This document shows, in pieces, positions 27,573 to 33,725 of a stretch of DNA of 34,440 nucleotides (its first letter is position 1; every line of letters starts with the position of its first letter). The stretch is taken from assembly GCA_017501145.1 (NCBI GenBank), contig JAFVXL010000022.1, positions 1-34,440 of the forward strand, read 5' to 3'. The stretch is from Clostridia bacterium. GTDB taxonomy: Bacteria > Bacillota > Clostridia > Christensenellales > Pumilibacteraceae. A model generated the notes under the pieces. The model made no database searches and was not told where the DNA came from. It saw only the letters and a list, made by a program, of their open reading frames with translations. The translations under genes were made by a program, and so were the position numbers.

Positions 27573-27905
27573 ATTACCGAGTATGGTCTATAAGCCGAGT
27601 TCTGTATTTGGCGGTTATCTATCTTGGCGCAGCGTTGCCGCTACGCTCTAGCGATACTGGAGAGAAGGCGAACAACCCTACACTCTCTCACAATCTTGTA
27701 CCAAATGGGGTTTACATGTGCCCGCCGCGTTGCCGCAGCGGCGGTGAGCTCTTACCTCGCCTTTCCACCCTTACCTTATCACTAAGGCGGTTTATTTCTG
27801 TTGCACTTTCCTTGGAGTCGCCTCCACCGGTAGTTAGCCGGCATTTTGTTCTGCGGTACTCGGACTTTCCTCGTTAAAAACGCAACCACCTGGCCATCTC
27901 GGTAA
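27573..27905 (-). ncRNA. rnpB: RNase P RNA
   Basis: This is the catalytic RNA that matures tRNA 5' ends. On the minus strand the conserved cores are all visible: GAGGAAAGTCCGAG near the 5' end, CAACAGAAA, GGTAAGGGTGGAAAGG and, near the 3' end, AGAACTCGGCTTATAGACC. The ends pair as the P1 helix, ACCGAG at the 5' end with CTCGGT at the 3' end. Length is about 333 bases. A promoter precedes it and a terminator follows. The P4 elements and GC-rich hairpin (CCGCCGC-TGC-GGCAACGCGGCGG region) fit a bacterial RNase P RNA; the A or B subtype was not resolved. The ends are approximate. Confidence 0.95.
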
Positions 27906-33395: not shown

Positions 33396-33530
33396 AATAC
33401 TCCGCTTTCGCCCAGTGGCGCTTACAATCTTACGATTGCTCGGCTAAGCGAACCCAGGGCTTCTCATCCCCCTTGTACAAAAATATAAGACTACATTGCG
33501 TAGTCTTATTTTTTTGGTACCACTAAGGGG
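33396..33530. repeat. tRNA-Glu-linked tandem repeat, copy 1
   Basis: This 135-bp unit is about 97% identical to the adjacent copy (three substitutions, one single-base indel). It starts AATACTCCGCTTTCGCC. In the middle is a stem, CGCTTA...TAAGCG, enclosing CAATC-TTAC-GATTG. It then carries CTTCTCATCCCCCTTGTAC, a terminator-like hairpin (33486-33508) and ends with a copy of the last 16 bases of the tRNA-Glu gene (33515-33530). It occupies most of the gene-free stretch 33339-33650. Confidence 0.92.
33479..33515 (-). terminator. Second-copy hairpin terminator in repeat copy 1
   Basis: The transcript stem TAAGACTAC-GCAAT-GTAGTCTTA is followed by UAUUUUU. The U tract is broken by an A compared with copy 2, so it should be somewhat weaker. 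Confidence 0.7.
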
Positions 33531-33666
33531 AATACTCCGCTTTCGCTCCGTGGCGCTTACCAATCTTACGATTGCTCGGCTAAGCGAACCCAGGGCTTCT
33601 CATCCCCCTTGTACAAAAAAATAAGACTACATTGCGTAGTCTTATTTTTTTGGTACCACTAAGGGG
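33531..33666. repeat. tRNA-Glu-linked tandem repeat, copy 2 (overlaps the tRNA 3' end)
   Basis: This 136-bp copy directly abuts copy 1, and its last 16 bases (33651-33666) are the real 3' end of the tRNA-Glu gene. In minus-strand RNA, AAGGGGGAU (plus 33602-33610) can pair over 9 bp with AUUCCCCUU (33525-33533, across the copy junction), including one G-U pair. That closes a fold around the internal hairpin (33554-33586). Copy 1 lacks this closing partner on its left. Confidence 0.92.
33615..33650 (-). terminator. Rho-independent terminator of tRNA-Glu (repeat copy 2)
   Basis: A near-perfect 15-bp stem (AAAAAATAAGACTAC with GTAGTCTTATTTTTT, loop ATTGC on the plus strand) lies directly after the tRNA CCA and ends in a U tract for the minus-strand transcript. 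Confidence 0.88.
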
Positions 33667-33725
33667 AATCGAACCCCTGTTTTCGGCGTGAGAGGCCAAC
33701 GTCCTAACCGCTAGACTATAGTGGC
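33651..33725 (-). tRNA. tRNA-Glu (anticodon CUC)
   Basis: On the minus strand the gene reads GCCACTATAGTCTAGCGG at the 5' end. The anticodon stem is TTGGC/GCCGA, with loop CTCTCAC giving anticodon CTC. The T arm is CAGGGGTTCGATTCCCCTT, and the acceptor strand TAGTGGT is followed by A-CCA encoded in DNA. Acceptor pairs are complete except a G1-U72 wobble. The length is 75 bases with CCA. Its last 16 bases are duplicated in the adjacent repeat. Confidence 0.95.

Follow-up and report, generated by a model that had tools for sequence, protein, structure and literature searches.

The tRNA-linked repeats (TLRs) of Escherichia coli were first described in 1978. There are 22 of them in this species, distributed over ten loci, and their last 18–19 bp repeat the 3' end of the tRNA or rRNA that precedes them; most are without known function (PMC8144298). 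They have been defined by sequence and not by expression, and those of the rRNA operons are transcribed, the RNAs RrA, RrB and RrF binding Hfq and CsrA in vitro (PMC8144298). At the sensitivity used, 4680 of the 5426 E. coli genomes searched had RtT repeats, and a limited literature search gave no published account of the origin of TLRs. Two other kinds of short hairpin DNA are relevant here, the CGTC-type REPs, reported without a dedicated transposase (PMC3733652), and the mitochondrial double-hairpin elements and yeast GC clusters, which have been proposed to be mobile and for which no dedicated enzyme has been identified (PMC5910586, PMC4478555).

We have analyzed a contig of 34,440 nucleotides from a Clostridia bacterium of the Pumilibacteraceae (the whole stretch is called the window here), in which an intact tRNA-Glu(CTC) gene (33651–33725; ARAGORN, 67.6 bits with the Rfam tRNA model) is followed by a repeat array. 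All the features are on the minus strand, and read in this direction the order is tRNA, terminator, inverted T-arm, GGGTTCG, GC-rich core, 19-nt tail, and again terminator, inverted T-arm and core. Directly 3' of the gene there is a terminator-like hairpin (33614–33652, 17 of 17 positions paired). It is followed, as we read the sequence, by an inverted copy of the tRNA T-arm and acceptor (GTACAAGGGGGATGAGAAGCCC) and a direct GGGTTCG (both within 33585–33613), and then by a double-hairpin element of 51 nt, copy A (33534–33584, CTTAGCCGAGCAATCGTAAGATTGGTAAGCGCCACGGAGCGAAAGCGGAGT), which scored 45.6 bits (E 8.9e-10) with R1, a covariance model built from the element core and run on the window without filters. 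The 19 nt directly 3' of copy A (33515–33533) are identical at all positions to nt 57–75 of tRNA-Glu, from the T-loop to the CCA, and since the match is exact the break falls in the T-loop, at TTCG|ATTCC, just after nt 56. The second unit contains another terminator hairpin (33478–33516, 16 of 17 paired), the inverted T-arm segment with GGGTTCG as a direct repeat (33449–33477) and copy B of the element (50 nt, 33399–33448; 45.0 bits, E 1.3e-9 in the same run), in which the region of the second hairpin has decayed to CGCCACTGGGCG. Beyond it there is ATT (33396–33398), three nucleotides with which another tRNA 3' end would begin; the far copy terminates in ATTGCGTTAAAATT, so the remainder of that tRNA end is gone.

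An earlier sequence-only reading of this locus had described two abutting direct copies of 135 bp, each with a terminator hairpin and a piece of the tRNA, and this is indeed what is found. The copies are about 97% identical (109 nt at 99% and 30 nt at 93%) with a spacing of 135/136, and the 9-bp helix that it had proposed (ATTCCCCTT/AAGGGGGAT), in which a single pair is G-U, is there. The common tRNA piece is however 19 nt long and not 16 (33515–33533 equals 33651–33669), and the differences between copies do not all fall outside the stems as had been claimed, one of them being in the second terminator stem and others in the CGCCAC.. segment of the element. The array is unlikely to be an artefact of assembly, because the copies differ and because arrays of the same type occur in many genomes, including that of the cultured Pumilibacter muris. 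The 271-nt segment folds more strongly than its shuffles (z -5.15), mainly by virtue of the two terminator palindromes, and the element core of the window taken alone has an ordinary fold energy when compared with shuffles (z 0.26). Within the segment only the tRNA exceeded the Rfam thresholds; sub-threshold matches to microRNA families and to RtT (RF00391, 16.4 bits for a gathering score of 45) were discarded as chance-level. Elsewhere in the window, the class A bacterial RNase P RNA (27574–27901) and an L10 leader (896–1039) are both ordinary.

The array thus consists of two units that immediately follow a tRNA, where E. coli has one to five, and the first ends in an exact tRNA 3' end, the second having lost its own past the ATT. 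Judged on its sequence, which is also the basis of the published definition, the window array is a tRNA-linked repeat.

The 135-bp unit is composite, being made of a mobile-looking element of 50–51 nt together with the copy of the tRNA 3' end, the terminator and the inverted T-arm. When one window unit was compared by BLAST with related genomes, it was the core and not the unit that was matched, in 14 of 61 of them. We have therefore rejected the 135-bp unit as a single mobile element, since what relatives have in common is only the core; the miniature element suggested before stands, reduced to these 50–51 nt. In the family the element measures about 36–54 nt, usually 43–51 nt, with the organization C-Y-Y-AGCCGAG, hairpin 1, CGAACGCCACG, hairpin 2 and GAGT. 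R1 matched 38 of the 74 genomes of Pumilibacteraceae, eight times in that of the window and at most 42 times in a single genome; the cultured P. muris and Pumilibacter intestinalis both belong to this family. Of 297 genomes sampled over the whole order, 34 had matches, mostly Pumilibacteraceae plus one other family. No Rfam family corresponds to the element. Carriage by phages, plasmids or viruses was discarded, as the searches of phages and plasmids gave no match and 57 viral contigs retrieved with a loose pattern contained no genuine match to the model.

Hairpin 1 has 67 different sequences in the roughly 113 distinct elements and its pairing is kept, with 357 Watson-Crick pairs and 3 G-U pairs, as opposed to 51 and 13 after shuffling the letters. 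In a small alignment there were 25 cells in which both sides had changed (0 of 500 shuffles). The arms of hairpin 2 are GC/GC, GCC/GGC, GGC/GCC, AC/GT, GT/AC or AAC/GTT, and the loops are mostly GNA. A terminal stem CTC/GAG is suggested by the sequence, and its covariation was not significant (p 0.17). The near absence of G-U suggests that the hairpins are important at the level of DNA, whichever the strand; together with the use of both orientations, it argues against selection acting on one RNA strand. The sequence-only reading would have been abandoned had the unit occurred nowhere else and shown no covariation; many other occurrences were found in relatives and the hairpins covary strongly.

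The element is an insertion with exact ends. We listed both flanks of 147 copies, removed the sequence from C-Y-Y-AGCC to GAGT and joined the flanks; excision at these ends restored a 16-nt word of an intact tRNA in 28 of the 147, and moving the boundaries by 1–3 nt reduced the intact junctions to 0, 1 or 3. Comparison of the flanks revealed neither duplication nor loss of the target. The base on the right was A at 104 of 106 distinct sites, the dinucleotide being usually AT, and that on the left was usually G or C. Exact sites were located after nt 56 (T-loop) of Glu and Arg tRNAs, which is also the position of the window insertion, at TTCG|ATTCC of a second tRNA-Glu copy. Others were after nt 16 of Leu (D-loop), after nt 8 of Thr(GGT) and, with the element facing opposite ways, after nt 30 and nt 39 of Thr(CGT). 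The anticodon is interrupted in further copies, of Met(CAT) and of Ile(GAT). Insertions were found in either orientation with respect to the tRNA. The idea that tRNA 3' ends are targeted has thus to be modified: tRNA genes are indeed a main target, but in the T-loop, the D-loop, the anticodon arm or near nt 8 of a spare copy, and the 19 nt of tRNA 3' end in the unit are merely what lies 3' of a T-loop insertion. Identical elements were present at differing flanks, at three sites in one family genome (G001), three in P. intestinalis (G025) and two in another (G011), and such identical copies at unrelated flanks point to copying of the element.

The element also nests within itself, at a single site (GAACGYC|AC) between the two hairpins (loci L018, L030, L129, L142 and L125). 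At L021, L019, L032 and L092 it lies in one arm of a larger palindrome, in which a segment of the tRNA faces its own inverted copy, as though snap-back copying had taken place. Inverted copies spanning the junction beside insertions scored at least 24 in 26 of 142 cases and in 1 of the shuffled controls, REP clusters contributing to the former number, for which reason we draw no conclusion from it.

An alignment test spanning the junctions classified the 147 copies into 68 in tRNA, 44 at the tag of a CGTC-type REP, 6 nested, 4 in half-tRNAs and 25 others, in a set that is not random, some loci having been fetched as tandem pairs or from the first BLAST. In other families of the order, 21 of 25 copies lay within tRNA copies, in a sample chosen by score alone and not for the presence of tRNA. 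In CGTC-type REPs the element is located just 3' of the tag (TGTC|ATTGCGAG, TGTC|ATTTCGA, TGTC|ATTCCGAG and CCTC|ATCCGTC), and uninterrupted targets of this kind numbered 402 in P. intestinalis, 56 in P. muris and 60 in G011. The CGTC-type REP TGTCATTNCGAG of P. intestinalis, with about 400 copies, has undergone a very large expansion when compared with the 56 of P. muris. At L079, L081, L087 and similar loci there are REP-like repeats made up of GNA mini-hairpins that closely resemble hairpin 1, such as GAGGAGCGAAGCGACGAA, the mini-hairpins common to both hinting at an exchange of hairpin modules.

Of the eight matches in the genome of the window, four passed the strict test (Glu, Thr-GGT, Thr-CGT and Leu) and the others, judged by eye, are next to remnants of tRNA, one being in the second Glu unit, two in Asn-like copies and one within an older Thr-CGT insertion. 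The 21 intact tRNA genes found in this genome are all different, and each extra partial tRNA copy found there, leaving out real tRNAs cut by contig ends, has the element or a variant with hairpin 1 only. This shorter variant, GAGCGCAGCGAACGCC, is found at tRNA-Arg(TCG), where the end of a contig (locus L389, contig C37, 497–738) carries the tRNA, a terminator and, after the variant, a second tRNA 3' end (nt 58–75). Spare tRNA copies of many related gut bacteria harbour the element. Many contig ends of this assembly (C42, C43, C62 and C75) and of other drafts are in or beside element-bearing tRNA arrays; the arrays therefore break short-read assemblies and hide tRNA genes, and the tRNA counts of such drafts are too low.

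We infer that the double-hairpin element moves, and have searched for what could move it. The Y1 transposase domain (Y1_Tnp) was absent from the element-rich genomes G000 (that of the window), G003, G008 and G011, in a search that did not include G025. IS110, with its DEDD transposase, was limited to 3 of the 74 family genomes, in one of which the score did not reach the cut-off, and was absent from that of the window and 70 others; TnpB was absent from nine Pumilibacteraceae tested and a reverse transcriptase domain was present in 3 of 12 genomes. None of the four families is consistently present, and we have rejected all of them as mobilisers. A search with the 3' half of the element pattern for an autonomous partner with the same ends led, in the places checked, to complete elements in every case. 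These data bear on a conventional REP of the IS200/IS605 type moved by a RAYT (Y1), or a small relative of IS110, which inserts into REPs. Small hairpins, no target duplication, a short target motif and the targeting of REPs would all fit, but with the transposases so scarce, no GTAG tag and no autonomous copy found, this origin is quite improbable. The position of the sites, in tRNA loops or close to them (T-loop, D-loop, anticodon), could also be explained by insertion at the RNA level, the product then being reverse transcribed and recombined into the chromosome. This is very improbable, given that most tested element-bearing genomes are without a reverse transcriptase domain, that both orientations occur, that REPs are targeted too and that the duplicated units include flanks foreign to the tRNA, such as the terminators.

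A structured small RNA like RtT or RrB, made by read-through of the terminator, released by processing and with its hairpins kept for an RNA function, has a precedent in the transcribed and protein-binding TLR RNAs of the E. coli rRNA operons (PMC8144298), and the hairpins of the element do covary. We regard it as unlikely, because selection on RNA alone tolerates G-U and only 3 of 360 pairs are of this type, while the element is found in both orientations relative to the tRNA and also in REPs away from tRNA genes, and in the window a strong terminator separates it from the tRNA. Tandem duplication of tRNA is common in bacteria, and the array could in principle be a plain tRNA pseudogene duplication, the core being leftover or chance sequence and no mobile element; with the same core in many different tRNAs, in REPs and in itself, and contradicted as it is by the exact-boundary test, this explanation is hardly credible.

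What we consider probable is that the window array is a TLR in Bacillota that arose by insertion of a miniature hairpin element into a duplicated tRNA and subsequent amplification of the resulting unit, the two tandem units agreeing with the amplification already suspected from the sequence. The element would move as single-stranded or cruciform DNA into targets prone to form hairpins, with the moving enzyme supplied in trans. Insertion into a single essential tRNA would be lethal, so that only insertions in tandem-duplicated tRNAs would survive, and the copy bearing the insert would then decay and might be amplified by recombination between direct repeats. Duplication of the tRNA presumably came first and insertion second, although both could have been one event.

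For comparison with E. coli we examined the MG1655 loci tyrT/tyrV (with the RtT repeats), argVYZQ and lysV, which provided eight repeat copies. All the TLRs examined are T-loop cases: the tRNA copy starts at TTCG|AATCC in six cases, and in the two others one base further on; one tyr copy is counted twice here because two of the loci examined overlap. They resemble the window array in standing directly 3' of a tRNA, in one to five tandem units with an 18–19-nt tRNA 3' end as tail, and the clostridial array in the T-loop break, within 1 nt, behind mini-hairpins with GNA-type loops; the spacing of the tyr array is 178 bp. As in the window, an inverted T-arm is found ahead of the insert at tyr and lysV, lysV also duplicating the terminator, and that of tyr has TGAGAA replacing TTCGAA. 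This replacement was seen alike in inverted T-arms of Glu, Arg (G002) and E. coli Tyr (window 33585–33613 and loci L422, L423 and L016). The terminal CGAGCCGCAAGGCGAGT of the argV/argZ insert is identical in 17 of 17 letters to part of a Pumilibacteraceae element, and one tyr insert has 18 letters in common with another clostridial element. In similarity to the element, the inserts of argZ and tyr copy 1 narrowly exceeded all 100 shuffles, and those of tyr copy 2 and lysV did not rise above theirs. The E. coli TLRs and the clostridial arrays are alike in architecture, and R1 scored none of the E. coli inserts. They differ in that the clostridial element is dispersed and is also found in D-loops, anticodon arms, REPs and itself, and in their hosts, Enterobacteria for the former and Bacillota for the window array.

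A wider proposal, which we put forward as a real possibility without favouring it, is that mobile DNA double hairpins of about 36–54 nt, with tRNA as a main target and moved by none of the transposase types tested, gave origin to the E. coli TLRs. If so, the constant 18–19-nt tRNA tail of TLRs would be the footprint of insertion in the T-loop. The clostridial loci make the origin of TLRs testable because they separate the parts, with an element of exact ends, empty sites adjoining, several hot spots in tRNA and REPs as second targets.

Among other hairpin DNA, REPs of the GTAG type with their RAYT are also miniature and without long target duplication, and differ from the element, which has no terminal GTAG tag and occurs in the four genomes where no Y1_Tnp was detected. 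The CGTC-tagged REPs have in common with the element that they are short palindromic DNA with no dedicated transposase known (PMC3733652), and inhabit the same genomes. Unlike them, the element does not begin with a CGTC, TGTC or CCTC tag and an 8–9-bp stem starting with AT, but with C-Y-Y-AGCC, has two short hairpins and uses such REPs as targets. The mitochondrial double-hairpin elements and yeast GC clusters are likewise short, GC-rich and dispersed hairpin DNA, the GC clusters having putative target duplications (AG/ACT) that the clostridial element lacks (PMC5910586, PMC4478555). With two covarying hairpins and dispersed copies on the chromosome of Pumilibacteraceae instead of an organellar genome, the clostridial element suggests a bacterial counterpart of these mitochondrial hairpins, for which no enzyme is known either.
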